The translations under genes and the position numbers were made by a program. A DNA stretch of 64,000 bases from assembly GCF_040518285.1 (NCBI RefSeq), contig NZ_CP155449.1, positions 2,790,001 through 2,854,000 on the forward strand, given 5' to 3'. This document shows positions 11-63,564 of the stretch, one piece after another (within the stretch, counting starts at the first letter, position 1; the number at the start of each line of letters is the position of its first letter). Under the pieces are notes generated by a model. That model was not told where the DNA came from, did not search any database, and saw only the letters and a program-made list of their open reading frames with translations. The DNA is from Knoellia sp. S7-12. Lineage in GTDB: Bacteria > Actinomycetota > Actinomycetes > Actinomycetales > Dermatophilaceae.

Positions 11-138
11 GCGGTCAAGTCTCCTTCGGTATGCCGCGACGCTGAAGTCGTGCGGCAGGGTCCAGTCTGTCAAACAATGCCTGTCAAACAATGCGGCGCG
101 GCCGCGAACGGCTCGGGCAGGGACTGCTTCGAGGTCGG

Positions 139-891
139 TCAGGCGGTGACGAGGGTGCCGATGCGCTCGCCCTGGATGGCCCGGGTGATATTGCCCTCGC
201 CCTCCATACCGAAGACCATCATCGGCAGGTCGTTCTCCATGCAGAGGCTGAACGCGGCCGCGTCGACGACCTTGAGGCCCTTCTGGAGCGCCTCGGCATA
301 GGTGAGCGTGTCGAGCTTGCGCGCGTCGGGGTTGGTGCGCGGGTCCGAGTCGTAGACGCCGTCGACGCCGCTCTTGGACATGAGCACCATGTCGCAGTGG
401 CACTCCAGGGCGCGCTGGGCGCTGACCGTGTCGGTGGAGAAGTACGGCATACCGGCTCCTGCTCCGAAGATCACCGCACGCCCCTTCTCAAGGTGACGGA
501 TCGCGCGACGCGGGATGTAGGGCTCGGCGACCTGGCCCATCGTGATGGCCGTCTGCACGCGCGTGTCGATGCCTTCCTTCTCAAGGAAGTCCTGCAGAGC
601 GAGGCAGTTCATCACGGTGCCGAGCATGCCGATGTAGTCGGCTCGCGAGCGATCCATGCCCTTCTGCTGGAGCTCGGCTCCGCGAAAGAAGTTGCCGCCA
701 CCGACGACGATGGCGACCTGTGTGCCTTCTCGGATGGCGGCGGCGATCTGGGCTGCGATACCGCGCACGACCTCGGGGTCGACGCCCACACTTCCTCCGC
801 CGAAAACCTCTCCGCTGAGCTTGAGAAGGACCCGTCGAGCGCGCTCACCAGTGGTGGTGGGAGCGATCTGGGTCTGGACGTCAGTGGTCAC
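139..891 (-). CDS. pyrH: UMP kinase PyrH
   Basis: A 250-residue amino-acid-kinase-fold protein that phosphorylates UMP to UDP with ATP in cytoplasmic pyrimidine synthesis. Visible landmarks are the N-terminal [13 protein letters not shown] nucleotide-binding segment, the glycine-rich [11 protein letters not shown] loop, and the [13 protein letters not shown] region typical of bacterial hexameric UMP kinases. The GTG start at 891 is preceded by GAGGAGG at 5-nt spacing. frr follows downstream. Unlike in most actinobacteria, the preceding gene is not tsf: about 3.5 kb of plus-strand genes separate the two, so pyrH must use its own promoter in 892-1011. Confidence 0.97.
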
Positions 892-1011
892 CGTGCCTCC
901 TCGGCAGTGTCTTCTGGCGGTGTCCCGAATCCTCGCACACCCAGCGAGTCATCACGCGTGGGCCACGACGTGTGAGACTCGCATGTCAGCCGAGACCGGG
1001 AGGCGATTTCA

Positions 1012-3321
1012 TTGTTTCGAAGAGTCATGTGCACTGCTCCATGGCTGATGTGCGTCCTCGTTCTGGGGAACTTCCTGCACGCCAACGACACCTCGGTGGG
1101 CGACCTGTTGCGCTATGCCGGGTATGCCGTGTTCGGCATCGCCCTTCCCGGCACGGTGCTGCTGCGATGCCTCCTGCCCGACCCTCGACCACTTGTCGAC
1201 GATCTCGCCCTCGGCTCGGCCCTGGGCATGGCCCTCCAGCTTCTCGTCTTCATCCCAGCTGTGGTCAGTGACCACGGCACTTGGCTGCGGTGGTGGCCCC
1301 TAGTGCTCGTCTTCGTGGCGACGAGCCTGCCTGCTCTGCGCCGGCGGTGGTGGCGGCCGCTTCGGCCGTCGAGTCGCAGCGACACTCAGCCGTCCCGCGA
1401 GACCGCCCCCGTGTGGTGGCACTGGGGCGTCGCCTCCGGTGCGACCGTGGGTGGCGCTGCGGCCGCACCAGGGTTGCTGGCGCTGCCCCTCCCACCGGGA
1501 GAGGGCGGCTACTACGTCGACATGCTGTGGCACCTCGGTCTGGTCCATGCCCTGACCCGGGCCGTGCCACCGGAGGTCCCCCAGGTCGCCGGGACCACGG
1601 TTGAGTACCACTGGTTCGCCGATGCGGACATGGCTGCGGCGACCCTCGTGTCGGGGGTTCCGGAGGCGGTCGTGCTGCTGCGTCTGTGGCCCGTGGCCGT
1701 CGTGCTCCTCGGTGTCGTGCTCACGGCAGTCCTGGCCCGCAGCCTGTCCGGGGTCTGGTGGGCAGGGGTCATTGCCGCGTGGATCTTCGCAACGCTGCGC
1801 GGACTCCTCATCCTCCCCATCAACCTTCCCGAGTCCCCCATAATCCCCTACAGCCCGAGTCATGGCTACGTCGTGGTGATGACGCTGGCCGCGGTGCTGC
1901 TCATCGTGTGGGCACTGCGAGGCGGCCGGCTGGGTGTGGGCTGGGTCGCGGTCGTGCTGTGCCTGGCCGCTGCCGGCGGTGGCAAACCAGCAGCCCTACC
2001 GACCATCGCCTGTGGGGCGGTCGTGGCCCTGGGTGCCGCCCTCTTGATCCATCGACGCTCACGTGCCTTCCGCGCTGCCCTCGCAGTACTCGCCGCGTGT
2101 GCGGTGCTGCTGCCGTTCACGAGCACCTACCTGTCGGGCAGCGACAGCACCAGTTCCCTGCGCCTGTTCTCCTTCATGGAGTGGATGCCGTTCTATCGAG
2201 AGGTGACCGGCGCAACCCGCCCCCCTGTCGCCGGACCCCTTCTCCCCGAGGGGATCAACGACCTCTCGTCCCGGTCGCTGCAGGTGCTCGTCCTCGCCCT
2301 GCTCGCCCTGGCTCTCACTCACGCGGGCCTGCTCCTTGGGGTTGCCACCGTGGCAAGGCGAACCGTTCGTCGCGACCTCGTGGCGTGGTTCTTCGCCGGG
2401 ACCCTGGGGGCGTCGTTCGGCGCCTACCTCGTGGTCTCCCACCCCGCCTACAGTCAGGTCTACTTCGTCCGACTGGCTCTGGCGTACGCCGCCGCGGTGT
2501 CGGCGTGGATCCTCGTCGGTGCCATCCACCGGATCAACGGCACAGCTCGGACGCGCGCGCTCACGCTCGGGTTTGGGTTCGTCATCGGACTGGGACTGGC
2601 GTGGGTCACCTCTCACCTCTCCGACGTCCCAGTAGATCGCGTGAGCCTCGACACGTGGCGATCCGCCTTCCTGCTGTCAGCTGGTGTGTTCTTCGGCGGT
2701 CTCGCCGTCGTGGGTCTCGCGCTCATGATCGCGTCCCGCACATCACCTCGATGGCAGGGTGCGGCCACAGCGGTCGTGGCCAGCGCACTCATCCTCGGCG
2801 CACCGGCATACGCCGTCCTCAGCACGGAGTTGACACCGGTCACGCCGGTCTTGCAAGCCATCAAGGGCACACAGATCGCGCTGAGGCCCGACACCGCCGG
2901 TGGCCAGCTGCCCATGCCGCAAGGTGGCGGCGCTGCGATGGACTGGATCAACCGACATCTCCCGGACGATGCCGTCGTCGCGACAAATCGGCACTGCAGC
3001 CGCGGGACCACCGCCAAGGGCTGCACCTCGAACCTGGCCATGGTCAGCGGGCTGGGCGGTCGCCAGACCGTCATCGAATCAACGCATTATGTCCCTGTCA
3101 CGGGCGGCCCCCCTGGCGCAAACCCCTATCCGGTCCTGCTCCGCGCCAACGACGCCTTGTTCACTGATCCGAGTGCCGACGGATTCGCCCGGATGAAGCG
3201 GGACGTCAGGTTGACTTGGCTCGTTGCCGACAGCACCGCCACGACCGTCTCCGCGCGGATCACCGATTTCGCGACCCCGCGGTTCACCGCCGGAACGATC
3301 ACCGTCTACGAAGTTCGCTGA
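1012..3321 (+). CDS. Large polytopic membrane protein, possibly GT-C glycosyltransferase-like
   Basis: A 769-residue integral membrane protein. I see more than ten hydrophobic helices from about residue 8 to 590, then an extracytoplasmic-looking C-terminal domain (about 610-769) with a MDWINRHLPDDAVV segment of the kind that follows the membrane part of GT-C sugar transferases. I recognise no defined family signature, so the glycosyltransferase idea is inference from topology. The TTG start at 1012 has GGGAGG at 998-1003; an in-frame ATG at 1027 is the alternative. It heads a three-gene plus-strand cluster inserted between pyrH and tsf. Confidence 0.75.
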   Translation: MFRRVMCTAPWLMCVLVLGNFLHANDTSVGDLLRYAGYAVFGIALPGTVLLRCLLPDPRPLVDDLALGSALGMALQLLVFIPAVVSDHGTWLRWWPLVLVFVATSLPALRRRWWRPLRPSSRSDTQPSRETAPVWWHWGVASGATVGGAAAAPGLLALPLPPGEGGYYVDMLWHLGLVHALTRAVPPEVPQVAGTTVEYHWFADADMAAATLVSGVPEAVVLLRLWPVAVVLLGVVLTAVLARSLSGVWWAGVIAAWIFATLRGLLILPINLPESPIIPYSPSHGYVVVMTLAAVLLIVWALRGGRLGVGWVAVVLCLAAAGGGKPAALPTIACGAVVALGAALLIHRRSRAFRAALAVLAACAVLLPFTSTYLSGSDSTSSLRLFSFMEWMPFYREVTGATRPPVAGPLLPEGINDLSSRSLQVLVLALLALALTHAGLLLGVATVARRTVRRDLVAWFFAGTLGASFGAYLVVSHPAYSQVYFVRLALAYAAAVSAWILVGAIHRINGTARTRALTLGFGFVIGLGLAWVTSHLSDVPVDRVSLDTWRSAFLLSAGVFFGGLAVVGLALMIASRTSPRWQGAATAVVASALILGAPAYAVLSTELTPVTPVLQAIKGTQIALRPDTAGGQLPMPQGGGAAMDWINRHLPDDAVVATNRHCSRGTTAKGCTSNLAMVSGLGGRQTVIESTHYVPVTGGPPGANPYPVLLRANDALFTDPSADGFARMKRDVRLTWLVADSTATTVSARITDFATPRFTAGTITVYEVR

Positions 3322-3343
3322 AGTACTTGGCACACTGTGGCCC

Positions 3344-3953: not shown

Positions 3954-4493
3954 GTGGCTTGGCGCACCCACACGTCCCGTGTCGTCTATGAGAACCCGTG
4001 GATCGTCGTGCGTGAGGACGGCGTCACCCGACCCGACGGCACTCAGGGCATCTATGGCTACCTCGAGGTGCGTCGACCTTCGGTCGTGATCGTCCCGATC
4101 ACTGACGAGGACGAGGTCGTGCTGATCCGCACCGACCGCTACACCCTCGGGCGGACCAACCTGGAGCTGCCTGCTGGAGGCACCGACGGGGAGGACGTCC
4201 TCGTTGCTGCCGCTCGCGAGCTTCGCGAAGAGACCGGGTATGCCGCCCGCGAGTTGATCGACCTGGCGCTCACGACCCAGCTCAAGGGCGTGACGCGCGC
4301 GGCCCAGCACGTCGTCCTCGCCACCGGCCTCCATCACGTCGGCGGTGAGGAACAGCTCGAGGAGGGCATCGAGAGCGTCGAGCACCACCCGTGGTCGGAC
4401 GTTCTCGAACTGCTGCGTCGGGCAGAACTCACCGACGGTGAGAGCGCCGCCGCCCTCATGTACGCCGCCGTCCACCTCGGCCGCGTCCACTAA
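3954..4493 (+). CDS. Nudix hydrolase, ADP-ribose pyrophosphatase type
   Basis: A 179-residue Nudix protein. The Nudix box is complete, GGTDGEDV then AARELREETGY, carrying the REXXEE Mg-binding glutamates at about residues 80-105. An ELPAG segment just before the box is typical of the ADP-ribose/NDP-sugar pyrophosphatase group, so a nucleoside-diphosphate sugar substrate is likely but unproven. The GTG start is 1 nt after the stop of the ABM gene. It is the last gene of the plus-strand cluster and converges on tsf. Confidence 0.85.
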   Translation: MAWRTHTSRVVYENPWIVVREDGVTRPDGTQGIYGYLEVRRPSVVIVPITDEDEVVLIRTDRYTLGRTNLELPAGGTDGEDVLVAAARELREETGYAARELIDLALTTQLKGVTRAAQHVVLATGLHHVGGEEQLEEGIESVEHHPWSDVLELLRRAELTDGESAAALMYAAVHLGRVH

Positions 4494-4500
4494 CCCTCCC

Positions 4501-4546
4501 TGCGTCTGCGGTTGTGGCTGTTCTAGCCGCCGTATCCGCAGACGCA
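4501..4546. repeat. Intergenic inverted repeat, TCTGCGG family copy 1
   Basis: Perfect 11-bp arms, TGCGTCTGCGG (4501-4511) and CCGCAGACGCA (4536-4546), enclose a 24-nt middle with a smaller GGCT/AGCC pairing. Related copies occur at 31169-31212 and 61636-61676, and all lie behind genes. It may terminate the Nudix transcript, but there is no T-run. Confidence 0.7.
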
Positions 4547-4570
4547 ACGCCTGAAAGTCCCACAGACGCA

Positions 4571-4606
4571 CGTATGCCGCCCGCTCTGGTGAGCGGGCGG
4601 CATACG
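4571..4606. terminator. 16-bp perfect hairpin between convergent Nudix gene and tsf
   Basis: Arms 4571-4586 and 4591-4606 pair perfectly around a TGGT loop. The arms begin and end with the GTATGCCG/CGGCATAC octamer that is dispersed through the window. Placement between two convergent genes suggests a bidirectional terminator, without a U-tract as is common in high-GC actinobacteria. Confidence 0.8.
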
Positions 4607-4632
4607 GGATGCGTCGGTGTCAGACCGTCAGG

Positions 4633-5463
4633 TCAGCCACCGACGCGGAAACGCGCGAAGGACGTCGCCGAGGCGCCGGCCTCCTCGAGAACCTTGGCAA
4701 CGGTCTTCTTCGGCTCCTTGGCGAACGGCTGCTCGAGCAGGACGTTCTCCTTGAAGTAGCCGTTGACGCGACCCTCGACGATCTTGGTGAGAGCAGCCTC
4801 GGGCTTGCCCTCCTCCTTGGCCGTGGCCTCGGCGACGCGACGCTCGTTCTCGACCGTGTCGGCGTCGACCTCGTCACGCGTGAGGACGGTCGGGCTGAAC
4901 GCGGCGACGTGCATCGCGACGTCGCGAGCAACCTGCTCGTCGCCACCATCGGTCGCCACGAGGACGCCGATCTGCGCGGGCAGGTCGGGGCTCGTCTTGT
5001 GGAGGTAGGCCGCCACAACCGGAGCCTCGATGCGGGCAACACGCTTGACCTCGATCTTCTCGCCGATCGTCGCGTTCGCGCCGTCGAGGAGATCCTTGAC
5101 GGACGTGCCGTCAGTGAGGGTGCTCGCGAGGAGCTCGTCGGCCGAAGCCGATTTGGTGTCGACGGCCTGCTGGAAGACCTGCTCGGCCAGGGCGATGAAG
5201 TTCTCTCCCTTGGCGACGAAGTCGGTCTCGCAGAGGACCTCGACGAGCGTGCCGACGCCACCCTCGGCCTTGGCGATGACGAGACCGTTGGAGGTGGAAC
5301 GACCCTCGCGCTTGGTCACGCCCTTCTGGCCCTTGACCCGCAGGATCTCGGTGGCCTTGGCCTGGTCGCCGTCGGCCTCATCGAGAGCCTTCTTGACGTC
5401 GAGCATGCCGGCACCCGTGGATGCACGGAGCGCCTTGATGTCAGCGGCGGTGTAGTTCGCCAT
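4633..5463 (-). CDS. tsf: Translation elongation factor Ts
   Basis: A 276-residue EF-Ts, which exchanges GDP for GTP on EF-Tu. The N-terminal UBA-like segment MANYTAADIKALRASTGAGM and the following DVKKALDEADGD are diagnostic, as is the LCETDFVAKGENF core motif. The length is normal for the actinobacterial form. It lies 60 nt downstream of rpsB on the same strand and is probably co-transcribed with it. The usual next gene, pyrH, is 3.7 kb away, beyond an insertion of opposite-strand genes. Confidence 0.98.
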   Translation of the reverse strand: MANYTAADIKALRASTGAGMLDVKKALDEADGDQAKATEILRVKGQKGVTKREGRSTSNGLVIAKAEGGVGTLVEVLCETDFVAKGENFIALAEQVFQQAVDTKSASADELLASTLTDGTSVKDLLDGANATIGEKIEVKRVARIEAPVVAAYLHKTSPDLPAQIGVLVATDGGDEQVARDVAMHVAAFSPTVLTRDEVDADTVENERRVAEATAKEEGKPEAALTKIVEGRVNGYFKENVLLEQPFAKEPKKTVAKVLEEAGASATSFARFRVGG

Positions 5464-6537: not shown

Positions 6538-6915
6538 GCCGTGTTCTCCTTGTGCTGGTGTTTCAGTTACGTCGGCTGCGCACGGGTCGTGCACTGCCTG
6601 CCTGGCGCCTGAAACGAACCACGCCGTATGCCGTGTGCTCCAGTGGAGCAGGCACATGGACTGTCGTGGTGCGCCCCGCTTCGTGGTGATCCAGTCAGCG
6701 GCGAGAGACGCGCGAATTAGGTCACCGTGAGCACGCACGCATGCAGGCGCACGAAGACCGTAGGCAATCCTACGCGTGAACTGGCCCGCCGAGAAATCCG
6801 CGGCGACCCGGGCCCACGGACTTGCACAACTGCCGCGGCGCGGCCCATCCCGCGCGTGGTCGTCCCGTTGAAACCCGGTATTGCATGTCCGCTGGCCCGC
6901 GTAGCGTCACCTCTC
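6538..6915. other. Divergent rpsB / MFS intergenic region
   Basis: No gene is supported in these 378 bp. The region holds the rpsB leader and promoter on the minus strand, one GTATGCCG octamer (6626-6633), and a 16-bp interrupted palindrome CGTAGG-CAAT-CCTACG (6759-6774) that could be an operator. On the plus strand TAGCGT (6902-6907) lies 8 nt before the GTG chosen for the MFS gene. An ORF continuing upstream from both genes is open here but has no family similarity. Confidence 0.6.
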
Positions 6916-8160
6916 GTGTCACGCCTCGGGGAAGCCATCGCACCGTCACGTCTCGGCACCCCGTTCCGGTGGCTCATGTCGGCGTCGTGGACGAGCAACA
7001 TCGGAGACGGGATAGCCCTCGCTGCAGGCCCACTGCTCGTGGCGTCGCAGACCCGCAGCCCCACGCTCGTGGCCATGGCGGCGCTGCTCCAGCGCCTGCC
7101 CTGGCTGCTCCTCGGTCTGTGGGCAGGAGCGATTGCGGACCGACTCGACCGCAAACGCATCATCATCACGGCCAACCTCCTGCGCGTGCTCGTGGTCGTC
7201 GGCCTGTGCACGTTCATCGCCACGGACCACATCTCGGTCGGCGCGGTGCTCGTGACGATGTTCGTCTACGGGGTGTGCGAGGTCTTCGCCGACTCGACCG
7301 CCAGCACGCTGCTGCCCATGGTCGTCAAACGTGAGGACCTCAGGACCGGCCAGGTTCGGCTCCAGGCAGGGTTCCTCACGGCAAATGAACTCGTCGGCCC
7401 TCCCGTCGGGGCCTTCCTCTTCGCCGCCGGGATGGTATGGCCGTTCGTCACCCAGATCCTGCTCGTCCTGCTCGCCATCGGCCTCATCAGTCGCATGGAA
7501 CTCCCCCGTGGTGGGGTCCGCGGCTCCGTCGACACCCACGTCCGGGCCGACATCCTCGATGGGTTGCGGTGGGTGCGCCACCACGCGCCGATGCGCACGC
7601 TGGTCCTCGTCATCCTCACCTTCAACATAACGTGGGGAGCGGCCTGGTCGATCCTCGTGCTCTATGCGCTCGACCACCTGCACATGGGCGAGATCGGATT
7701 CGGCCTTCTCTCGACCGCGAGCGCGGTCGGCGGGGTGTTGGCCACGACGAACTTCGACCGACTCTCGCGCCGCTTTTCCCTTGCCACGCTCATGAAGGTG
7801 TGCCTGGTGACTGAGGTGTTCACCCACCTCGCGCTGGCGCTCACCACGGTGGGATGGGTCGCGATCCTCGTCATGACGGTCTTCGGTGCCTATGCCTTCA
7901 CCTGGGGGACGGTCAGCAACACCATCCGACAGCGGTCGGTGCCCACGGCATACCAAGGGCGGGTGGGCAGCGTCTACATGACAGGGCTCTTCCTCGGCAT
8001 CATCATCGGTCAGGCCATCGGCGGTCCGATCGCGGAGCAGTGGGGCCTCACCGCGCCGTTCTGGTTTGCCTTCGTCGGCACCGCCGTGATCCTCGCCCTG
8101 GTGTGGCGCCAGCTCGACTCCATTGCCCACGCCGGCGACGACGACCCAGACGCCATCTGA
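6916..8160 (+). CDS. MFS transporter, MFS_3/EntS-like exporter
   Basis: A 414-residue, roughly 12-helix major facilitator. The loop after helix 2 reads GAIADRLDRKR, the conserved MFS cytoplasmic motif. The overall layout (LMSASWTSNIGDGIALAAGP start, GFGLLSTASAVGGV in the second half) resembles the MFS_3 group that contains enterobactin and macrolide exporters. Substrate is unknown. The open frame extends back to 6727 in low-quality sequence; I chose GTG 6916 because the first helix follows it closely and TAGCGT sits 8 nt upstream, a leaderless-style start. Confidence 0.8.
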   Translation: MSRLGEAIAPSRLGTPFRWLMSASWTSNIGDGIALAAGPLLVASQTRSPTLVAMAALLQRLPWLLLGLWAGAIADRLDRKRIIITANLLRVLVVVGLCTFIATDHISVGAVLVTMFVYGVCEVFADSTASTLLPMVVKREDLRTGQVRLQAGFLTANELVGPPVGAFLFAAGMVWPFVTQILLVLLAIGLISRMELPRGGVRGSVDTHVRADILDGLRWVRHHAPMRTLVLVILTFNITWGAAWSILVLYALDHLHMGEIGFGLLSTASAVGGVLATTNFDRLSRRFSLATLMKVCLVTEVFTHLALALTTVGWVAILVMTVFGAYAFTWGTVSNTIRQRSVPTAYQGRVGSVYMTGLFLGIIIGQAIGGPIAEQWGLTAPFWFAFVGTAVILALVWRQLDSIAHAGDDDPDAI

Positions 8161-8508: not shown

Positions 8509-9201
8509 TCAAAGGTGCTTGAGCGCCTCGCGTCGACTGAGACCCGAGAGCCGCGGTCCATGGGCGTCGACGAAGGCCCGAACCCACGCCGGGTCGGTGC
8601 GGGAATACTGGCGCAACGCCCAACCGATGGCCTTGCGGACAAAGAACTCCGTGTCGTCGAGGTTCGGCTCGATGACCGCCTCGAGGAGTTCGGTGTCGGT
8701 GCGGTCCTTGTGGCGCAACTGGCTGATGATCGCCGAGCGTCTCAACCACATGTTCTCGTGCTCGGCCCAGCCACGCATCCGTAGCCCTTCCCCCTCGGGG
8801 TCCAGCAACAGCACTTCGCCCACGACATTGCCGACCTCATCGACGTAGTCCCACCACGCGCCCGTCGTGATCATGTGCTCGACAAGGGGCATGACGTCCG
8901 GGTCCCGCCACGAGCGGTAGCTGCGGTGGCGGAGAAGGGCGAGGGCGGCATACCTATCCTCACGGAACTGCGCCCCGTCCCAGAGGTCACCGACCGCACG
9001 CTCCCAACCCGTGCGGCTCTCGATCCGCAGCGCAGGATCGGCAAGCAGGGGGCGCAGCAGTGCGTGGCGCTGTGGCGAGGTGAGGCCGAGGAACGGCATC
9101 TCGCTCTTCATGTAGCGCTGCTGACCGACTGCACGCTCGACGTTGGCGCCCGAACGCAGCGCGACCCGCATCGCATCGAGGAGCTCGGAACCGTCAGACA
9201 T
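8509..9201 (-). CDS. AlkD-like DNA alkylation repair protein
   Basis: A 230-residue HEAT-like helical-repeat protein of the DNA alkylation repair family. Family features include QQRYMKSEMPFLGLTSPQ near the N-terminus, TTGAWWDYVDEV in the middle, and DDTEFFVRKAIGWALRQYS toward the end. Characterised members excise N3- and N7-alkylated purines without base flipping. The ATG at 9201 follows TAGGCT with 7 nt between, and no Shine-Dalgarno is visible, so a leaderless transcript is likely. It is divergent from the aminotransferase, 43 nt away. Confidence 0.88.
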   Translation of the reverse strand: MSDGSELLDAMRVALRSGANVERAVGQQRYMKSEMPFLGLTSPQRHALLRPLLADPALRIESRTGWERAVGDLWDGAQFREDRYAALALLRHRSYRSWRDPDVMPLVEHMITTGAWWDYVDEVGNVVGEVLLLDPEGEGLRMRGWAEHENMWLRRSAIISQLRHKDRTDTELLEAVIEPNLDDTEFFVRKAIGWALRQYSRTDPAWVRAFVDAHGPRLSGLSRREALKHL

Positions 9202-9244: not shown

Positions 9245-10405
9245 ATGGATTCGCCTCTCGTGCAACGAATGCAGGGCTTCGGGTCGACGATCTTCGCGGA
9301 GATGACCGGGTTGGCCATCGAGCACGACGCCCTCAACCTCGGTCAGGGCTTCCCCGACACGGACGGCCCGCAGGAGATCCTCGATGCCGCAAAGGCCGCG
9401 ATCGATGCCGGGCACAACCAGTACCCACCCGGTGCCGGCGTGCCCGAGCTGCTCGACGCGATCGCTGCGCACCAGAAGCGTTTCTACGGTCTCGAGATCG
9501 ACCCACGCCGCGAGGTCCTCGTCACCGTCGGTGCGACCGAGGCGATCGCCGCGACGATCCTCGCGCTCTGCGAACCAGGCGACGAGGTCGTGACGTTCGA
9601 GCCCTACTACGACTCGTATGCCGCTTCCATCGCGTTGGCCGGTGCGGTGCGGCGGACGTCGGTGCTCCGCTTCCCTGACTTCGCCGTCGACGAGGACTCG
9701 CTGAGGGCGGCGTTCTCGTCGCGGACCCGGCTCGTGCTCCTCAACACGCCGCACAACCCGACGGGCAAGGTCTTCAGCCGCGCCGAGCTCGAGCTCATCG
9801 GTCGGCTCGCGCAGGAGCATGACGCATGGATCGTCACCGACGAGGTCTACGAGCACCTCGTCTTCGATGGGTTGGAGCACGTGCCGATCGCGACCCTGCC
9901 GGGGATGGCCGAGCGGACCCTCACCATCTCCTCGGCGGGCAAGACCTTCTCGACGACCGGTTGGAAGGTCGGTTGGGTGAGCGGTCCGGCTCAGGCCGTC
10001 GCAGCCGTGCGGACTGTGAAGCAGTTCCTGACCTACGTCGCGTCCGGACCGTTCCAACCTGCGGTTGCGGTGGGCCTGGGGCTTGGAGACGACGTGTATG
10101 CCGGTCTCACCCGTTCGATGGAGGGCAAGCGTGACGTGTTGCTCGAGGCGCTGCGTGGGATCGGCCTCAACGTTGCCGTCCCGGGAGGGACGTACTTCGT
10201 CGTCGCGGATGTGGCGCCGCTGGGAGCGACCGACGCGCTGACGTTCTGCCGCGAACTGCCGGCCCGCGCGGGCGTCGCTGGTGTCCCGGTGTCGGTGTTC
10301 CACGACGACGTCGATGCCGCGCGCACGCTCGTGAGGTTCGCGTTCTGCAAGCAGGACGGTGTGTTGCGCGAAGCCGCGCAGAGGTTGTCGTCTCTGCGCC
10401 CCTGA
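9245..10405 (+). CDS. PLP-dependent class I/II aminotransferase, DapC/KAT-like
   Basis: A 386-residue fold-type I aminotransferase. The N-terminus reads LNLGQGFPDTDGP, the middle has NTPHNPTGKV, and the pyridoxal lysine lies in SSAGKTFSTTGWKVGW (about residues 225-240). The closest functional groups I recognise are actinobacterial N-succinyldiaminopimelate aminotransferases (lysine pathway) and kynurenine/methionine aminotransferases. The sequence alone does not separate them, so no symbol is given. TAGCCT at 9233-9238 is 6 nt before the ATG, suggesting leaderless transcription. Confidence 0.88.
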   Translation: MDSPLVQRMQGFGSTIFAEMTGLAIEHDALNLGQGFPDTDGPQEILDAAKAAIDAGHNQYPPGAGVPELLDAIAAHQKRFYGLEIDPRREVLVTVGATEAIAATILALCEPGDEVVTFEPYYDSYAASIALAGAVRRTSVLRFPDFAVDEDSLRAAFSSRTRLVLLNTPHNPTGKVFSRAELELIGRLAQEHDAWIVTDEVYEHLVFDGLEHVPIATLPGMAERTLTISSAGKTFSTTGWKVGWVSGPAQAVAAVRTVKQFLTYVASGPFQPAVAVGLGLGDDVYAGLTRSMEGKRDVLLEALRGIGLNVAVPGGTYFVVADVAPLGATDALTFCRELPARAGVAGVPVSVFHDDVDAARTLVRFAFCKQDGVLREAAQRLSSLRP

Positions 10406-49072: not shown

Positions 49073-49360
49073 TCAGCCCTTGGCGATCGACTCGTGGTGG
49101 TGGATGACCTCGGCGATGACGAAGTTGATGAACTTCTCGGCGAACTCCGGGTCGAGGCCACTCTCGTTCGCCAAGCCGCGCAACCGCGTGATCTGGCGCT
49201 CTTCACGCGCAGGGTCCGCGGGCGGCATACCCTGCGTCGCCTTGAGCTCGCCGACCTGCTGGGTGCACTTGAAGCGTTCGGCGAGCAGGTGCACGAGGGC
49301 CGCGTCGATGTTGTCGATGCTCGAACGCAGGCGGGCCAACTCCGGAGGGACATCGCTCAT
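49073..49360 (-). CDS. Chorismate mutase (AroQ class, monofunctional)
   Basis: A 95-residue all-helical AroQ domain. LARLRSSIDNIDAALVHLLAERF gives the N-terminal catalytic-helix pattern, followed by QVGELKA (Lys) and REERQITRLRG. It converts chorismate to prephenate for Phe/Tyr synthesis. Small actinobacterial AroQ-delta enzymes often need DAHP synthase for full activity. TACGAT lies 6 nt before the ATG. Confidence 0.88.
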   Translation of the reverse strand: MSDVPPELARLRSSIDNIDAALVHLLAERFKCTQQVGELKATQGMPPADPAREERQITRLRGLANESGLDPEFAEKFINFVIAEVIHHHESIAKG

Positions 49361-49430
49361 CACCCCATCGTAGGAACGCTTGCCTTCCGTGGTCCGTGCG
49401 TCCCACGACCCGGTATGCCGTCCACTCCCC

Positions 49431-50525: not shown

Positions 50526-52496
50526 ATGAGCGTGGAGAGCCCTTCCGCTCGGCCCGGGGCCGCGAGCGCGTCCGCCCCGTCCCGCAGCAGATCGACGCGC
50601 CCGGCAGGTCGCCTGCCCGGGCTCGATGGTCTGCGCGCGATCGCGATCCTTGCCGTCCTCGCGTTCCACCTCGACCCTCGCTGGCTGCCCGGTGGGTTCC
50701 TCGGTGTCGACGTCTTCTTCGTCATCTCCGGATTCCTCATCACGACGCTGCTCGTGCGCGAGCACGACCGAGACGGACGCATCGACCTGCGCGGGTTCTG
50801 GACCCGGCGGGTTCGGCGCCTCCTGCCCGCCCTGCTCGTCCTCGTCCCGAGCGTCATCCTCATCGCCCGGCTCGTCGAGACCGACCTGCTCGTCGGCATC
50901 CGTCGGCAGGCCGCAGGCGCCCTGACCTTCACGAGCAACTGGCTCGAGATCGGCGCGGGCTCCGACTACTTCCACAGCACCGCACCCCAGCTGCTCATGA
51001 ACCTGTGGTCGCTCGCGGTCGAGGAGCAGTTCTACCTCGTGTGGCCGCTCGTCGCCCTCGCTCTGCTGAAGTTCGCCCCGTCCTCTCGGGTCCGGGCTGG
51101 CGTTGCCGTCGCTCTCGCGCTCGGTTCCGCGGCCCTCATGGCGAGCCGCTACGACCCGGCGCTCGGTGCCACCCGCGTCTACTACGGCACCGACACCCAC
51201 CTCATGGGCCTCATGCTCGGCTCCGCGCTCGCCTTCGCCTGGGCTGCACCGCACCGCGCGTGGACCTCGACGGACCTCTGGCAACGGGTGCGTGTCCCGG
51301 CGGTCGCCGGCGCCGGGCTGGTTCTCGTGGCGCTCGTCGCGCTGCTCGACGAGTCGACACCGCTCACGTTCCGGGGGGGCATCCTCGCGGCTTCCCTGGC
51401 CACCACCGTCCTCGTCCTCGGGGTCATCGAGCGCCCGACTCGCCTGCGTTCGGTCCTCGACCTGTCGGTGCTGCGCTGGATCGGTGAGCGTTCCTACGGG
51501 CTCTACCTCTGGCACTGGCCGGTGATCCTCATCATCGAGGCTGACCTCTCCTGGGCCTCTCGGGGCGCCGACGACTACCTCTGGTCCCGACTGTGGTGCG
51601 TCGTCGTCACCGCGGCCATCGCCGACCTGTCCTATCGCTTCATCGAGACACCCGTTCGTCGACGTGGTTTCCGCGGCTCCGCACGCCACCTCCTCCACAC
51701 GATCCGCTACTCCGGGACCCGCACGGCGCGCGCGGTGTGGGCGGGTGTCGCCGTCCTCGCAATCATCCTGACCACCGTCCTCGTCACCGCCCCCAATCGG
51801 ACCCGGGTCGAGCAACTCCTCGACGCCAACGCTTCTGCCGCAACGGTGTCGGCACCGAAGTCGACCTCCAAACCCGCCCCGTCGGGTTCGCCGTCGGACG
51901 CCTCGAACCCGTCGGCGAAGCCGTCCGCGGCATCGCCGGCCAGGCCGGCCGCACCGATCACGCAGTCCTGGACCATGCCGAGCGGTGCCGAGATCGACGG
52001 CTACGGCGACTCGATGATGGTCGGCAGCGTTCACGCACTGCGCTACTACTTCCCCGGCATCCGCATGGACGCCCGCTCCAACCGTCAGTGGGCCGAAGGC
52101 CTCAAGGTCGTCAGCGCCCGCGGCAACAGCAACCGTCGCGCCGTCGTCCTCGCGCTCGGCACCAACGCTGGCACCGACCTCGATCGAGCCCGCCAGACCC
52201 TCGACGCACTCGGCCCCGACCGCATGGTCGTCATCGTCACCCTGCACGGACGCATCAACCGGATCGCAACCGACAACACTGCCCTCAAGGAGCTCGTCGC
52301 AGGGCGCGACAACGTCGTCCTCGCCGACTGGGATGCCGCCCTCAAGGGCACGAGCGACCAACTCCAGTCCGACGGCATGCACCCCTCGCTGCAAGGCGCG
52401 CACCTCTATGCCAAGACGATCCGGCAGGCGTTCGCGGACCTGAGCACGCGGCATACCGGCAAGGCCGTGACGCTCAAAGAGCTCCCGCCCCCATGA
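50526..52496 (+). CDS. OafA/OatA-type acyltransferase with C-terminal SGNH domain
   Basis: A 656-residue protein. Residues about 35-420 form an acyltransferase-3 domain with roughly ten helices: LPGLDGLRAIAILAVLAFHL, GVDVFFVISGFLITTLL and NLWSLAVEEQFYLVWPL. A Ser/Pro/Lys linker leads to an extracellular SGNH domain with nucleophile GYGDSMMVGS and the final DGMHPSLQG (Asp-x-x-His). It probably O-acetylates a cell-surface polymer. TAGCCT lies 6 nt before the ATG. The stop overlaps the DUF1801 start. Confidence 0.92.
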   Translation: MSVESPSARPGAASASAPSRSRSTRPAGRLPGLDGLRAIAILAVLAFHLDPRWLPGGFLGVDVFFVISGFLITTLLVREHDRDGRIDLRGFWTRRVRRLLPALLVLVPSVILIARLVETDLLVGIRRQAAGALTFTSNWLEIGAGSDYFHSTAPQLLMNLWSLAVEEQFYLVWPLVALALLKFAPSSRVRAGVAVALALGSAALMASRYDPALGATRVYYGTDTHLMGLMLGSALAFAWAAPHRAWTSTDLWQRVRVPAVAGAGLVLVALVALLDESTPLTFRGGILAASLATTVLVLGVIERPTRLRSVLDLSVLRWIGERSYGLYLWHWPVILIIEADLSWASRGADDYLWSRLWCVVVTAAIADLSYRFIETPVRRRGFRGSARHLLHTIRYSGTRTARAVWAGVAVLAIILTTVLVTAPNRTRVEQLLDANASAATVSAPKSTSKPAPSGSPSDASNPSAKPSAASPARPAAPITQSWTMPSGAEIDGYGDSMMVGSVHALRYYFPGIRMDARSNRQWAEGLKVVSARGNSNRRAVVLALGTNAGTDLDRARQTLDALGPDRMVVIVTLHGRINRIATDNTALKELVAGRDNVVLADWDAALKGTSDQLQSDGMHPSLQGAHLYAKTIRQAFADLSTRHTGKAVTLKELPPP

Positions 52497-55381: not shown

Positions 55382-55499
55382 TGCCTTATGCCTTGGTCGA
55401 GTGATTCGGTCCGTCGTCACGGCTGACGCAGACCGAAGGACAAAGGTACCGGAGGGTGGTGCACCAGCCCAAATGCGCCGCGTATGCCGCGTGCGAACG

Positions 55500-56009
55500 T
55501 CAGCCGTTCGGCTGCGCCAAACGCTCGGTGAGGGCCGCCAGGACCTCGTCCGGAACGAGCCCGGAGACGTCGCCACCGAACTTCGCGACCTCCTTGACGA
55601 GCGAGCTCGACACGTGCTCGAACTGCGGTGCGCCCGGGAGGAAGACCGTCTCGACGCCGGTGAGGTGGCGGTTCATCAGGGCCATGGGCAGCTCGTAGGC
55701 GAAGTCGGTGCCCCCACGCAGGCCCTTGACGATGACATCGGCACCGACATCACGGCATACGTCGACAAGAAGGCGACCCGCGAAGGCTTCGACCCGCACG
55801 CGGGAGGCCGCCTCGTCGGGAAGGGCGCGCTCGATGAAGCCGATCCGCTCGTCCACGGTGAAGGTGCCGCTCTTGGCCGGGTTGTGCAGCACGGCGACGA
55901 CGACCTCGTCATAGAGGGCGGCGGCGCGCATGAGCACGTCGACGTGCCCAAGCGTGATCGGGTCATAGGACCCGGGACAGACTGCTCGCCTGATCTGCTG
56001 CTCGCTCAC
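55500..56009 (-). CDS. coaD: Phosphopantetheine adenylyltransferase CoaD
   Basis: A 169-residue nucleotidyltransferase in coenzyme A synthesis. The active-site motif is CPGSYDPITLGHVDVL (T/HxGH), with VIVKGLRGGTDFAYELPM and HVSSSLVKEVA completing the family pattern. GTG 56009 was chosen because TAGGGT lies 7 nt upstream; GTG 56018 is in frame too. A hemerythrin-type gene separates it from its usual neighbour rsmD. Confidence 0.96.
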   Translation of the reverse strand: MSEQQIRRAVCPGSYDPITLGHVDVLMRAAALYDEVVVAVLHNPAKSGTFTVDERIGFIERALPDEAASRVRVEAFAGRLLVDVCRDVGADVIVKGLRGGTDFAYELPMALMNRHLTGVETVFLPGAPQFEHVSSSLVKEVAKFGGDVSGLVPDEVLAALTERLAQPNG

Positions 56010-56726: not shown

Positions 56727-57275
56727 TCAGTGAGTCGCGTACCAGATGACGGTCTCGCCGTACTTCTTGAGCCGCTCCGGCTCGAGCCCCTCGGGCCACG
56801 TCGGCTCGGCGGAACGTTTTGAGCGCTCGATGACGACAAGGGCGTCCTCAGCCAGCCAGCCGCGTGTGACGAGCGCAGCGAGGTCGACGGCGAGCGCCTC
56901 CTCGGTGAGGTCGTAGGGCGGGTCGAGGAAGACGAGGTCGCGCTCCTGGGGTGCGCCGGCCAGGGCCGAGGTCACCGTCACCGGGACCACCGTCACGCGC
57001 AGTCCGAGCCGTCCTGCGTTGTCCCGGATCACCGCCGCCGCAGTCCGGTCGGACTCGACCAGGATCACGTCCGCCGCCCCCCGACTGGCGGCCTCCAGAC
57101 CCAGGGCTCCCGACCCGGCATACAGGTCCATGACGCGCGCACCGGTCAGCGCGTCGCGCGCCTCGAGCGCGGAGAAGAGCGCTTCGCGCACACGATCGCT
57201 CGTGGGTCGCGTGCCGCGGCCGGGAGGAGTCTTCAGCTCGCGGCCGCCAGCCGTGCCGGCGATGATTCGGGTCAT
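56727..57275 (-). CDS. rsmD: 16S rRNA (guanine-966-N2) methyltransferase RsmD
   Basis: A 182-residue methyltransferase. TRIIAGTAGGRELKTPPG and RPTSDRVREALFSAL form the conserved N-terminus, VMDLYAGSGALGLEA the SAM site, and DLVFLDPPY the catalytic DPPY motif. It modifies 16S rRNA near the P site. It lies 7 nt downstream of recG on the same strand. Confidence 0.96.
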   Translation of the reverse strand: MTRIIAGTAGGRELKTPPGRGTRPTSDRVREALFSALEARDALTGARVMDLYAGSGALGLEAASRGAADVILVESDRTAAAVIRDNAGRLGLRVTVVPVTVTSALAGAPQERDLVFLDPPYDLTEEALAVDLAALVTRGWLAEDALVVIERSKRSAEPTWPEGLEPERLKKYGETVIWYATH

Positions 57276-57282
57276 CTGAGCC

Positions 57283-59496
57283 TCAGCCTCGTTCCAGGTA
57301 TGCCGCTTGGTCGGCGTCGACGCGTGCGTGGACGAGCTCGGCAAGATGCGGATGCGCCGAGAGGTCAGGGTCATCGGCCACGACACCGAAGGCATCCTCT
57401 CGCGCCGCCTCGATGAGGTCCTCGTCCTCGAGAACATGCAGGAACTGCAGCTGGCTGCGGACGCCGTGCTGGGAGGACCCGAGGATGTCGCCCTCGCGCC
57501 GTTGACGCAGGTCGATGCGGGCCAGCTCGAAGCCATCGGTCGTGCCCGCGACGGCGTCGAGCCGCTCATGCGGCGCGTCGCCCTCACCCGAGTGGACGAG
57601 CAGGCAGAGCCCCGGCAGACCGCCACGGCCGACCCGGCCCCGGAGCTGGTGCAGCTGGGAGACACCAAAACGGTCCGCGTCCATGACGACCATGACGCTG
57701 GCGTTGGGGACGTCGACACCGACCTCGATGACGGTCGTGGAGACGAGCACGTCGATGTCGCCCGACGCGAAGTCACGCATGATCGCGTCCTTCTCGTCGG
57801 CGTGCAGCCTGCCGTGCAGGATCTCGATGCGCAGACCGTCGAGCGCCGGGTTGGCGACGAGATCCGCGTGGACGCGGTGGACCGACGCGAGAGGTCGGGG
57901 TGGCGGAGCGCCTTCCTCGTCACCGTCTCCGTCCTCAGCACCGTCTCCGTCGGAATCGGAGGCGCCGCCGGCATCGGGCGCAAAGATCTCGGCGTCCTCG
58001 TCGGGCTCGTCGTCATCACCGATGCGGGGGCACACGACGTAGGCCTGGCGCCCCAGGGCCACTTCCTCGCCGATGCGTACCCACGTGCGCTGCAGCCAAC
58101 CCGGTTTGCCCTCGGGGACGACGTGGGTCGTGATGGGAGCGCGACCGGCGGGGAGCTCGCTCAGGGTTGACGTCTCCATGTCGCCGAAGACCGTCATCGC
58201 AACCGTGCGCGGGATGGGGGTGGCGGTCATGACGAGGACGTGGGGAGGCTGAGCAGCCTTGCCCCGCAGCGCATCTCGCTGCTCGACCCCGAAGCGGTGC
58301 TGCTCGTCGACGACGACGAGGGCGAGGTCCTGGAAGCTCACGTGCTCCTGGATGAGGGCGTGAGTGCCGATGACGATCCCCGCGTCACCACTGGCGATGT
58401 CGAGCATCGCCTTGCGCCGGACCTGGGTCGACATGCTCCCGGTGAGGAGGGTGACGCGGGTGCCGATCTCGCTGCCGCCAAGCATGCCGCCCTCGGCGAG
58501 ATCACCGAGCATCGTCGTGATCGAGCGGTGGTGCTGTGAGGCGAGCACCTCAGTCGGGGCGAGGAGTGCAGCCTGCCCTCCGGCGTCGACGGCCGCCAAC
58601 ATCGCCCGCACGGCGATGACGGTCTTGCCGGAGCCGACCTCGCCCTGGAGGAGGCGGTGCATGGGAACGTCGCGGGCCATCTCGCTCGCGAGCGTTTCGC
58701 CGACCTCGACCTGACCGGCGGTGAGGGTGAACGGCAGCCTCTCGTCGAAGGCGTCGAGCAGACCACCGGGGCGAGGCACGCGAGCCAGCGTCGACTCCTT
58801 CGCCTGACGCGCCCGGCGCTGCGCGAGAGCGACCTGCAGGATCAGGGCCTCCTCGTAGGACATGCGCTTGCGCGCCGCGTCGACCTCGGCCTGCGAGTCC
58901 GGCGTGTGGATTCCCCGCAGGGCGGCCATCCGGTCCACGAGGTCTCGTCGATCAAGAACTGCCTCGGGGATCGCCTCGGGCGTCTCGTCGAGCAGGTCGA
59001 GGACCATCCGGACGCACTCGGTCACCGTCCAGGTGTGGAGGTTGCCGACGGCCTTGTAGATCGGGATGAGGTTGCGTCGCTCGCCCCGGTCGAAATCACT
59101 GAGCAGTGAATATCCAGGGTGGGCCAGCTGGAGCCGGTTGTTGAACGAGGACACCTTGCCCGCGAACAGCGCCCGCGCGCCCGGCATGAGCTTCCCCTCG
59201 TGCCCGTGGGCCGAGAAGAAGGTGATCTCGAGGTCCTTGGAGCCGTCGGTGATGACGGCCTGGAGCATGCGTCCTCGACGGGCCTTCATCGAACGTGTGG
59301 TTGCCGTCTTCACCTCTGCGACGGCGACGATGTAGGAGCCGATGCGGGCGGCCGCGAGGTTGCTCGCGGGCGACTGGTAGCGGCGCGGCCAGTAGGCCAG
59401 GAGGTCTCCCACGGTCTCGATGCCCCGTGAGTCCTTGAACTTCTTCGCCTCGCGCTTGTCCAACACCTTCGTGAGCGGAGTCGACTCGTCGTACAC
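57283..59496 (-). CDS. recG: ATP-dependent DNA helicase RecG
   Basis: A 737-residue branch-migrating helicase. The N-terminal wedge/OB region is followed by motif I LQGEVGSGKTVIA, motif II VVDEQHRFG, MTATPIPRT, and C-terminal VSTTVIEVGVDVPNA and QLRGRVGRGG. An acidic Glu/Asp insertion lies between the helicase lobes at about 530-560 (DDDEPDEDAEIF, DGDGAEDGDGDEEG). GTG 59496 has GGTGGAG 10 nt upstream and lies 4 nt after the DhaL/FakA-like gene. Confidence 0.96.
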   Translation of the reverse strand: MYDESTPLTKVLDKREAKKFKDSRGIETVGDLLAYWPRRYQSPASNLAAARIGSYIVAVAEVKTATTRSMKARRGRMLQAVITDGSKDLEITFFSAHGHEGKLMPGARALFAGKVSSFNNRLQLAHPGYSLLSDFDRGERRNLIPIYKAVGNLHTWTVTECVRMVLDLLDETPEAIPEAVLDRRDLVDRMAALRGIHTPDSQAEVDAARKRMSYEEALILQVALAQRRARQAKESTLARVPRPGGLLDAFDERLPFTLTAGQVEVGETLASEMARDVPMHRLLQGEVGSGKTVIAVRAMLAAVDAGGQAALLAPTEVLASQHHRSITTMLGDLAEGGMLGGSEIGTRVTLLTGSMSTQVRRKAMLDIASGDAGIVIGTHALIQEHVSFQDLALVVVDEQHRFGVEQRDALRGKAAQPPHVLVMTATPIPRTVAMTVFGDMETSTLSELPAGRAPITTHVVPEGKPGWLQRTWVRIGEEVALGRQAYVVCPRIGDDDEPDEDAEIFAPDAGGASDSDGDGAEDGDGDEEGAPPPRPLASVHRVHADLVANPALDGLRIEILHGRLHADEKDAIMRDFASGDIDVLVSTTVIEVGVDVPNASVMVVMDADRFGVSQLHQLRGRVGRGGLPGLCLLVHSGEGDAPHERLDAVAGTTDGFELARIDLRQRREGDILGSSQHGVRSQLQFLHVLEDEDLIEAAREDAFGVVADDPDLSAHPHLAELVHARVDADQAAYLERG

Positions 59497-61676: not shown

Positions 61677-61694
61677 ACAGTTGGGGTATGCCGG

Positions 61695-62775: not shown

Positions 62776-62789
62776 GCACGGTACCGTGC
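62776..62789. promoter_or_regulatory. 14-bp perfect palindrome between thiL and AsnC-type gene
   Basis: GCACGGTACCGTGC is exactly self-complementary and lies midway between two divergent start codons (40 nt from thiL, 83 nt from the AsnC-type gene). It is a plausible operator for a dimeric regulator. The regulator is unknown. Confidence 0.45.
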
Positions 62790-62872
62790 AGACGACCGTC
62801 GCCTCGGTGACGGTCGATCAAGACTCAGCGGAGCGGCATACGTGCCCTCTCTCGACAGTGAGGTGACACCCA

Positions 62873-63106
62873 GTGGTCCAGGCCTACATCCTGATTCAGA
62901 CCGAAGTCGGTCGCGCAGCCGCCGTGGCTACCGCGATCGCAGCGATCCCGGGAGTGGCCCTCGCCGAGGACGTCACCGGTCCCTACGACTGCATTGCGCG
63001 CGTCGAGGCCGAGACGGTCGACGAACTCGGCAAGCTCGTCATCGCCAAGATCCAAGAGGTCGAGGGCATCACCCGCACCCTCACCTGCACGGTGGTTCAC
63101 GTCTGA
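62873..63106 (+). CDS. Stand-alone AsnC/Lrp-type ligand-binding (RAM) domain protein
   Basis: A 77-residue protein that is only the RAM domain: VQAYILIQTEVGRAAAVATA, IPGVALAEDVTGPYDCIARV and the C-terminal VEGITRTLTCTVVHV. There is no helix-turn-helix. Such proteins form decamers that bind amino acids and may modulate full-length Lrp regulators. It precedes the DUF3515 lipoprotein gene by 2 nt. Confidence 0.9.
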   Translation: MVQAYILIQTEVGRAAAVATAIAAIPGVALAEDVTGPYDCIARVEAETVDELGKLVIAKIQEVEGITRTLTCTVVHV

Positions 63107-63108
63107 CC

Positions 63109-63564
63109 GTGACAACACGGATGCGTTCGATGACGGCGGTGGCGCTCGGCGCCACCGCCGTCATCATGCTGTCCGGGTGTTCGTCGGCCGTCGAGATTGC
63201 GCCCACTTCCGTGGCCAACGGCGAGGTATGCCGTGAGGTCACCTCTGCGTGGCCGGTTGACGTCGGCGACCATGCGCGACGGGAGGTGTCGGACGCGAGC
63301 GCCGGTGCGGCATACGGGGATCCGGCCATCATCGCCAGGTGCGGCGTCCCCGCTCTGGGACCCACGACGGACGACTGCATCGAGGTCGACGGCATGGGCT
63401 GGGTCGCGCAGAAGCTGAGCGACGGGACCCGCTTCACGACGTTCGGGCGGGACCCCGCAATCGAGGTCCTCATCCCCAGCGACTACGCGCCCGAACCTCT
63501 GCTGCTGCCCGCCTTCAGTGCTGCGGCGCAGAAGCTCCCGAAGAACTCCCTCGCCTGCCGCTGA
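63109..63564 (+). CDS. DUF3515 lipoprotein
   Basis: A 151-residue exported lipoprotein. MTAVALGATAVIMLSGCSS is a signal peptide with lipobox LSGC, the Cys at about residue 24. The mature domain matches DUF3515 (VCREVTSAWP, AAYGDPAIIARCGVPALGP). No function is established. GTG 63109 lies 2 nt after the AsnC-type stop; ATG 63121 is an alternative. It converges on ddl with 3 nt between, the conserved neighbourhood. Confidence 0.85.
   Translation: MTTRMRSMTAVALGATAVIMLSGCSSAVEIAPTSVANGEVCREVTSAWPVDVGDHARREVSDASAGAAYGDPAIIARCGVPALGPTTDDCIEVDGMGWVAQKLSDGTRFTTFGRDPAIEVLIPSDYAPEPLLLPAFSAAAQKLPKNSLACR

Follow-up and report, generated by a model that had tools for sequence, protein, structure and literature searches.

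The octamer GTATGCCG is repeated throughout a 64-kb stretch of the Knoellia sp. S7-12 genome (the window; C1:2790001-2854000 of a one-contig chromosome of 4,163,720 bases). In the present study, GTATGCCG proved to be a genuine self-DNA tag of a single actinobacterial family (Dermatophilaceae in GTDB terms), strongly enriched, conserved, and apparently polar. We lean toward the reading that it is a polar tag for the exchange of self-DNA, most likely one that would work as a DNA uptake sequence (DUS).

An exact search of the window identified 48 copies of GTATGCCG (25 on the plus strand and 23 on the minus strand), the first at 29-36 and the last at 63308-63315, and a previous sequence-only reading of the same DNA had given the same count. 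That reading had put the random expectation at 2-3 copies and the enrichment at approximately 20-fold. This estimate holds for a zero-order Markov model (2.35 copies expected). However, the expectation was 0.71, 1.23, and 1.97 for orders 1, 2, and 3 (7.9 for order 4), with all models fitted to the window itself, motif included, and 0.58 for 100 dinucleotide shuffles, none of which reached 48 copies; orders 1-3 and the shuffles give a 24- to 83-fold excess. GTATGCCG was the top-ranked 8-mer of the window under each order from 0 to 4. The whole chromosome carries 2805 copies (1406 and 1399 by strand), one per 1.5 kb, and 79 copies of the reversed word. In a 464-kb sample, consisting of the window and 20 evenly spaced 20-kb stretches of the same genome, 299 copies were found vs 4.5 expected under a third-order Markov model with the motif masked, which corresponds to 66 times the expectation. 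Whole-genome counts near a Markov expectation had been named in advance as evidence against the enrichment, and the counts obtained were far above it.

The sequence-only reading had also argued that codon usage does not explain the excess, that the excess is independent of the reading frame, and that the octamer occurs in intergenic DNA as well. All three points were borne out. Among the 299 copies of the sample, 244 were coding, 51 intergenic, and 4 partial, with densities of 60.2 copies per 100 kb of coding DNA and 86.5 per 100 kb of intergenic DNA. Because our home-made gene caller misses some genes (the copy at 57116 is one case), the values for intergenic DNA are somewhat too high. Synonymous-codon shuffles within genes (n=60) retained a mean of 24.9 and a maximum of 42 coding copies vs the 244 observed. 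The observed number exceeded the shuffled mean in each of the six frames (3 vs 0.12, 16 vs 3.8, 105 vs 13.9, 6 vs 0.6, 82 vs 4.8, and 32 vs 1.6), and enrichment confined to one frame, which would have spoken against selection on the DNA, was not found by this shuffling. The further claim that the octamer forces rare codons applies mainly to ATA and TAT (32 of 82 and 105 of 661 codons of the gene calls, respectively, lie inside a copy), whereas only 3 of 110 GTA and 82 of 1843 GCA codons do so.

The core is strict: words with one mismatch reached 0 to 3.75 times their expectation vs 66 times for GTATGCCG itself. The position immediately after the core is A in just 2% of the copies of the sample. 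In the copies called intergenic, a weak extension was apparent (Y at 9, Y at 11, G at 12, T at 14, C at 15, and T at 19), and positions -9 and -8 were A-rich. The extended form GTATGCCG-YSYGC was present in 20 of the 51 copies called intergenic vs 31 of the 248 others. The uptake signal sequence (USS) of Pasteurellaceae is built of a core plus flanking positions.

Orientation was examined in 1.117 Mb of the genome with 737 copies, in which dnaA lies at C1:496 and the terminus near 2.1 Mb by skew. No replication-strand bias was seen in this sample (356 of 737 copies on the leading strand, p 0.38), nor was an origin-to-terminus gradient evident, the right arm being somewhat poorer in GTATGCCG; these are the results of the check on strand and ori/ter bias that the sequence-only reading had recommended. 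Neighboring copies alternate: they had the same orientation in 232 of 715 cases (p 3.5e-21), and in 71 of 204 in the genome of Janibacter sp. HTCC2649 (G006). Pairs within 60 bp were 18 convergent, 17 divergent, and 2 tandem (35 inverted to 2), and neighbors more than 200 bp apart were 404 inverted vs 214 tandem. Pairs on the same strand occurred at 0.16-0.63 of the expected frequency up to 800 bp, at 0.66-0.88 between 800 bp and 2 kb, and at approximately the expected frequency beyond, while pairs on opposite strands occurred at 2.8 times the expectation within 60 bp and at 0.89-1.35 beyond. Four control words taken from the same genome all lacked significant alternation. Since repulsion in Knoellia is restricted to the same strand, the two strands appear to be filled independently, which points to a directional function with a reach of 1-2 kb.

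Individual copies are conserved. GlnD of the present genome shares 95% identity with the protein from Janibacter sp. HTCC2649 and 78-91% with those of seven Knoellia records. When 400 kb of the present genome was compared with 400 kb of HTCC2649, 233 kb aligned with 84.9% identity. In this alignment, 136 of 154 copies of GTATGCCG were identical (a further copy was excluded on account of a gap), compared with 7141 of 17771 composition-permuted 8-mers (40%) and 50 of 151 one-mismatch neighbors. Conservation by position was 93-99% in the core and 72-95% in the flanks. Similarly, 38 of 42 window copies were identical in HTCC2649 vs 1805 of 4475 permuted controls. At the glnD locus of nine species, GTATGCCG was present in at least one species at 64 aligned sites, 44 of which were single-species, a number inflated by alignment gaps, and 5 of which were shared by all nine; therefore, copies also come and go. 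Losses beside a same-strand neighbor showed a trend only (18 lost and 136 retained in the HTCC2649 comparison, p 0.08). The frame-independent excess and this conservation support the earlier suggestion of selection on the DNA itself, or else biased transmission.

The DNA around the copies diverges unequally on the two sides. In the 233-kb HTCC2649 alignment (153 copies), divergence at 50-1000 bp from a copy was lower 5' than 3' of it, the difference being 0.0175 (z 4.3 with 300 orientation flips, z 4.6 with 300 circular shifts, and Wilcoxon p 4e-6). Third codon positions showed a difference of 0.031, and first and second positions one of 0.0096. The effect faded by approximately 1.5 kb. Among 101 8-mers with at least 80 copies, GTATGCCG had the largest t (4.29), followed by 2.65, with a standard deviation of 1.0 for all words. 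The sign was the same in sense (t 4.7), antisense (t 1.6), and intergenic copies (t 1.9), and t ranged from 1.4 to 3.8 in four subregions. A lower divergence on the 5' side would be the trace expected of homologous exchange that is polar toward that side.

Mobile DNA was examined in the same comparison. An insertion of 85.6 kb in HTCC2649 (G006:C1:148815-234432) holds 6 copies of GTATGCCG, approximately 7 per 100 kb vs 70 in aligned DNA, at a similar guanine-plus-cytosine (GC) content. We regard this insertion, on the basis of its predicted proteins, as a conjugative-type element: a TraG/TraD-type coupling protein and a T2SSE ATPase were among the ten proteins scanned, together with three E1-E2 (P-type) ATPases, of which two carry heavy-metal domains. 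In the present genome, a copy-free gap of 10.5 kb contains a phage integrase and one of 11.9 kb a serine recombinase, and two further copy-free gaps of 10.7 and 11.4 kb lie at 807-839 kb; these gaps were seen in three blocks selected for the low GTATGCCG content of a stretch sampled there.

The enrichment is a family trait with gaps. In a survey of 58 relatives, all nine genomes of the genus had 1971-3277 copies of GTATGCCG. Twelve of 27 other genera of the family had at least 900 copies (G023, with a control count of 453, among them), 15 had fewer than 300, and each of 22 genomes from other families of the order had 167 at most. Among 296 genomes of the class, enrichment was found only in family members (the present genome, G103, G136, and G321), two other members being without it, and genomes outside the family had no more than approximately 5 copies per 100 kb, as read from a density table. 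A ComEC tree of 30 genomes did not clearly cluster motif-rich and motif-poor labels (7 changes vs a shuffled mean of 8.7; 67 of 500 shuffles were as low). We read GTATGCCG as an old trait that may have undergone several losses or respellings.

Some relatives use other spellings. GGATGCCG has 3816 copies in G024 and 3949 in G033 vs 260-1336 in the other 34 family genomes, and 18 copies in 22 kb of Humibacillus. In 144 kb of G034, GTATGACG, GTATGGCG, and GTATGCCG had 86, 53, and 54 copies, and in 84 kb of G011 they had 29, 18, and 54, respectively. Weaker candidates are GTACGCCG in G030, GGCGTACG in G031, GGACGTCC in G018, and GGATGCCG in G009, all of which may be compositional. Alternation, as counts of neighbors with the same orientation, was also significant at eight other Knoellia loci (36 of 130), in G033 with GGATGCCG (47 of 137), in G023 (4 of 27), in G034 with the three spellings pooled (70 of 184), and in G031 with GGCGTACG (19 of 61). 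GTATGACG alone did not alternate significantly in G034.

Several repeats were noted during this survey. In G023, the octamer sits inside a longer repeated unit, approximately GCCGTATGCCGCTGRGCTCGCTC (32 copies in 100 kb), which may be a different kind of repeat sharing the core. Words such as AGTTCGACG, CCGTCGAAC, and ACGGTCACG occur approximately 27 times in the first 20 kb of G030 (G030:C1:1-20000), possibly as a CRISPR or tandem array. The palindrome GGACGTCC is over-represented in motif-poor G018 (44 vs 6.1 in 104 kb). G055, from another family of the order, has 1548 copies of GGATGCCG in 3.8 Mb, well above the other-family genomes searched; a second family may therefore use a related word.

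The present genome carries comEA-comEC and has TadE-like pilins in its two Tad pilus clusters. ComEC and HHH_3 (ComEA-type) matches were found in all 36 family genomes, and T2SSE ATPases exceeded the cut-off in 35 of 36. The tadA-tadB-tadC order was present in six of six relatives, with flp and tadE genes next to it in G009, G031, G018, and G012, in motif-rich and motif-poor genomes alike, and no receptor stood out in the Tad gene order of these six. The match in the six relatives concerns the Tad cluster at 1.40 Mb of the present genome; the G034 cluster is truncated where its contig ends, and no recognizable flp or tadE follows tadC in G033. RecC was found in 10 of 36 family genomes and in none of nine Knoellia, and was more common in motif-poor genomes. 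Three of the 10 genomes with RecC were motif-rich vs 18 of the 26 without it (20 of 26 when the GGATGCCG dialect is counted); these counts ignore phylogeny, to which the inverse trend may be due. Adjacent PDDEXK_1 frames of approximately 1000-1100 amino acids or more were found in 35 of 36 genomes, and in the remaining one, G001, the frames lie on two contigs; we read them as a putative AdnAB-type pair. None of the parts searched (ComEC, HHH_3, T2SSE, N-methyl prepilin, RecC, and PDDEXK_1) tracked the motif across the 36 family genomes.

We propose the following scheme for a polar exchange tag. A surface receptor with a preference for the octamer and also for its weak 3' extension YSYGCTC, probably part of a Tad/Flp pilus or of the ComEA step, would capture DNA of lysed relatives. 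The captured DNA would then be cut and threaded 3'-end-first through ComEC from the tag onward, so that it would be chiefly the DNA 5' of the tag that enters and recombines. Import of single-stranded DNA proceeds 3'-first. In a monoderm, which has no outer-membrane step, recognition would therefore take place where DNA is converted for single-stranded 3'-first import and would be directional. Tagged alleles would be transmitted more often, and tags would thus accumulate on each strand independently. Accumulation would stop where a same-strand tag within 1-2 kb renders another redundant, and mobile elements that spread by other routes would carry few tags. More tentatively, we speculate that a monoderm actinobacterial family has its own independently evolved, dialect-bearing, and polar uptake-sequence system, in which each tag sponsors approximately 1.5 kb of exchange on its 5' side. 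Because recognition would be coupled to 3'-first import, the chromosome would then carry two interleaved strand-specific sets of tags, the spacing of which would record the length of exchange tracts. To our knowledge, uptake sequences are known only from two Gram-negative families, and a literature search returned no report of one in Actinobacteria among the matches listed (titles and abstract openings).

A number of results weigh against this proposal. We know of no uptake experiment in the family. The receptor class for uptake in Neisseria is a type IVa prepilin (a type IV minor pilin in Neisseriaceae), and no match to a type IVa prepilin was found in 34 of 36 family genomes, including the present one. 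No part of the machinery that we searched tracks the motif because ComEC, HHH_3, and T2SSE are present in motif-rich and motif-poor genomes alike. The polarity of divergence rests on one species pair. Within it, the strands of the 400-kb region are uneven, with a difference of 0.0289 for minus copies (t 5.0) and 0.0083 for plus copies (t 1.8; p 0.009 by shifts), and the window shows the reverse, with 0.0255 for plus copies (standard error [se] 0.015) and 0.000 for minus copies (se 0.017). The window alone had no significant 5'/3' difference (0.0123, z 1.1, 44 copies). When region and window were pooled (197 copies), t was 4.29, and both strands were positive (t 2.5 and 3.6). The 22-kb glnD locus of nine species, which is underpowered with 13 sites of the present genome, gave a mean of 0.009 (se 0.021). 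In seven smaller sets (L028 with G015, Nostocoides-like loci, Humibacillus, G011, G029, G030, and G009), neighboring copies did not alternate significantly. A dialect switch at orthologous sites was not seen, GGATGCCG being present at none of five aligned sites of the present genome in Humibacillus. Furthermore, unaligned runs of at least 3 kb are not consistently poor in GTATGCCG: those of the present genome inside the syntenic span hold 16 copies in 28.5 kb, and the other such runs of HTCC2649 hold 17 in 50.3 kb. Old acquisitions and mere divergence may be the reason why these runs are not poor. Lastly, a passage of PMC1939737 describes the uptake of DNA through the Haemophilus USS as independent of orientation.

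A chi-like octamer is the main rival, although we consider it unlikely. While processing double-strand breaks, an AdnAB-type helicase-nuclease would encounter the word from its 3' side and load recombinase, exchange and repair would be stimulated 5' of the word, and enrichment would shield the cell's own DNA from degradation. An asymmetric 8-mer with strand-specific spacing fits this account, and the lower 5' divergence and its polarity are explained as well by it as by uptake; chi of Escherichia coli acts on its 5' side. The larger effect of minus copies, which are on the leading strand in the 400-kb region, also suits a chi-like site, although the window shows the reverse. An AdnAB-type pair was present in all 36 genomes (as adjacent frames in 35 and split over two contigs in G001), although in motif-poor genera too, and genomes with RecC were less often motif-rich (3 of 10 vs 18 or 20 of 26, ignoring phylogeny). 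However, the leading-strand bias that distinguishes E. coli chi was absent (356 of 737). As a yardstick, chi in 600 kb of one replichore of E. coli K-12 was distributed 100:38 between the strands, and it clustered on the same strand (19 pairs within 400 bp vs 7.5 expected, g 2.4-3.0), the opposite of the same-strand repulsion of GTATGCCG. No RecC match was found in nine Knoellia, and hairpin pairs, an extended flank, and a 36- to 66-fold enrichment are not known to us as features of chi. Strand bias, clustering, and the lack of RecC in the nine Knoellia thus set GTATGCCG apart from a chi of the E. coli kind, while chi-like behavior is retained as a rival.

The sequence-only reading had offered three candidates, namely, a nucleoid-protein site, a methylation target, and an exchange or uptake tag. 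The last of these fits best, with dialects, inverted pairs, the lack of strand bias, and scarcity in mobile elements, whereas the first two fail to predict same-strand repulsion and one-sided divergence. We consider it improbable that GTATGCCG is the binding site of a nucleoid or chromosome-organizing protein with a directional (loading or translocation) activity. Such a site might well be genome-wide, conserved, and spaced according to orientation; however, neither a replichore strand bias nor an evident ori-ter gradient was detected in the sample, in which the right arm is somewhat poorer, and scarcity in a large island of similar GC content and a change of word between genera are unexpected for a housekeeping site. 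The one-sided divergence would also be left unexplained. An asymmetric target of DNA methylation or modification (type III, type ISP, or BREX-like) appears very improbable. The word is asymmetric and contains an adenine, and the turnover of enzymes could account for genus dialects, but such a target requires neither an enrichment of 36- to 66-fold nor the conservation of single copies, and it predicts neither the same-strand repulsion nor the polarity. We give next to no credence to codon usage, composition, or mutation bias, which would account for nothing beyond a frame preference and which the Markov controls, the synonymous shuffles, the intergenic enrichment, and the poor island of similar GC content rule out.

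The copies in the window are distributed as follows, with the label "intergenic" taken from the home-made codon-usage gene caller. Three inverted pairs are present. The pair at 4572-4605 (4572-4579 plus and 4598-4605 minus) has 15-bp arms and matching 3' extensions, and the fold of 4566-4612 had a minimum free energy of -37.1 kcal/mol (z -7.4); the hairpin with octamer ends that had been predicted at 4571-4606 is therefore real. No U-tailed terminator was detected when 4300-4800 was scanned, and a classical intrinsic terminator was accordingly rejected as the identity of this hairpin. The other two pairs are at 25551-25578 (25551-25558 minus and 25571-25578 plus), which is intergenic, and at 43732-43785 (43732-43739 minus and 43778-43785 plus), both exact matches. 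Single intergenic copies lie on the plus strand at 29-36, 6626-6633, 28664-28671, 49413-49420, 55482-55489, 61686-61693, and 63226-63233, and on the minus strand at 19901-19908, 62834-62841, and 63308-63315; those at 6626-6633 and 19901-19908 have the extended form and are followed by TGTGCTC. The minus copy at 57116-57123 was called intergenic, yet lies within an open reading frame with a match to Cons_hypoth95 (Pfam). Two copies are within glnD (35620-35627 minus and 37205-37212 plus) and two within smc (46366-46373 plus and 47820-47827 minus), while a third (49223-49230 minus) is within the smc open reading frame close to its listed start. The remaining exact matches are at 1122-1129, 4238-4245, 9616-9623, 10096-10103, 16256-16263, 17137-17144, 20656-20663, 23009-23016, 30320-30327, 34000-34007, 35046-35053, 42593-42600, and 57298-57305 on the plus strand, and at 445-452, 2804-2811, 7946-7953, 8946-8953, 15635-15642, 19160-19167, 22847-22854, 32738-32745, 34743-34750, 40029-40036, 44975-44982, 52449-52456, and 55753-55760 on the minus strand.

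The reason why uptake sequences exist is an old dispute between mate recognition and a by-product of receptor bias. If GTATGCCG is an uptake tag, a dialect-bearing actinobacterial tag would be an independent replicate of uptake-sequence evolution, and natural competence would be predicted in Knoellia and related lineages. Moreover, strand-specific spacing and one-sided divergence would allow the direction and length of exchange to be read from genomes alone. Should GTATGCCG prove to be chi-like, it would surpass in enrichment every such site known to us and would point to an AdnAB that reads sequence. Under either reading, GTATGCCG may mark recently acquired DNA in these genomes.

Among known systems, HIP1 of cyanobacteria is a palindromic octamer iterated through the genome. 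GTATGCCG is also a genome-wide iterated octamer, but it is not its own reverse complement, and its strands matter and behave independently. Chi (RecBCD/AddAB) is an asymmetric octamer with a polar 5' effect and a species-specific word. GTATGCCG resembles it as an asymmetric octamer, and the lower 5' divergence would fit the 5' effect of chi; in contrast to chi, GTATGCCG has no replication-strand bias, shows repulsion rather than clustering, is much more strongly enriched, and is found in Knoellia genomes with no RecC match.

The likeness to DUS and USS is broader. Passages of PMC3630211, PMC7811141, PMC1939737, and PMC5217627 describe their copy number, inverted pairs, dialects, lack of a chromosomal orientation bias, and non-coding excess, and PMC7371117 reports an atypical distribution in mobile elements. 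GTATGCCG likewise has more than 1000 genome-wide copies of a short word (2805), close inverted pairs that form hairpins (35 inverted vs 2 tandem; one pair was folded), dialects between related species (GGATGCCG in G024, G033, and Humibacillus; GTATGACG and GTATGGCG in G034 and G011), and a low density in an integrated mobile element, yet other unaligned runs are not all poor. The orientation-independent function of the USS is not what we observed, as judged from the same-strand repulsion and the 5'/3' divergence asymmetry in one species pair. As in the Neisseriaceae, for which passages of PMC3630211 describe a short word with thousands of copies, clade dialects with a shared core, inverted pairs capable of forming stem-loops, and some family genomes without any dialect, GTATGCCG is a short, dialect-bearing family word. 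However, it is an unrelated word in an actinobacterium without a type IVa prepilin match, and it shows same-strand repulsion and one-sided divergence. The USS of the Pasteurellaceae occurs approximately once per kb, with a non-coding excess, no orientation bias, and overlapping inverted pairs at gene ends (passages of PMC7811141, PMC1939737, and PMC5217627), and GTATGCCG is similar in these respects; in contrast to the USS, the spacing and divergence around GTATGCCG depend on the strand. Since orientation dependence is not known to have been published for DUS or USS, we do not file GTATGCCG as a member of either. In Micrococcus luteus, transformation depends on a Tad/Flp pilus and involves comEA-comEC and two tad clusters, according to passages of PMC4322843 and PMC6370729 that make no mention of an uptake sequence. 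The present genome, in which no type IVa prepilin match was found, resembles M. luteus in this respect and in the possession of comEA-comEC and two tad clusters.

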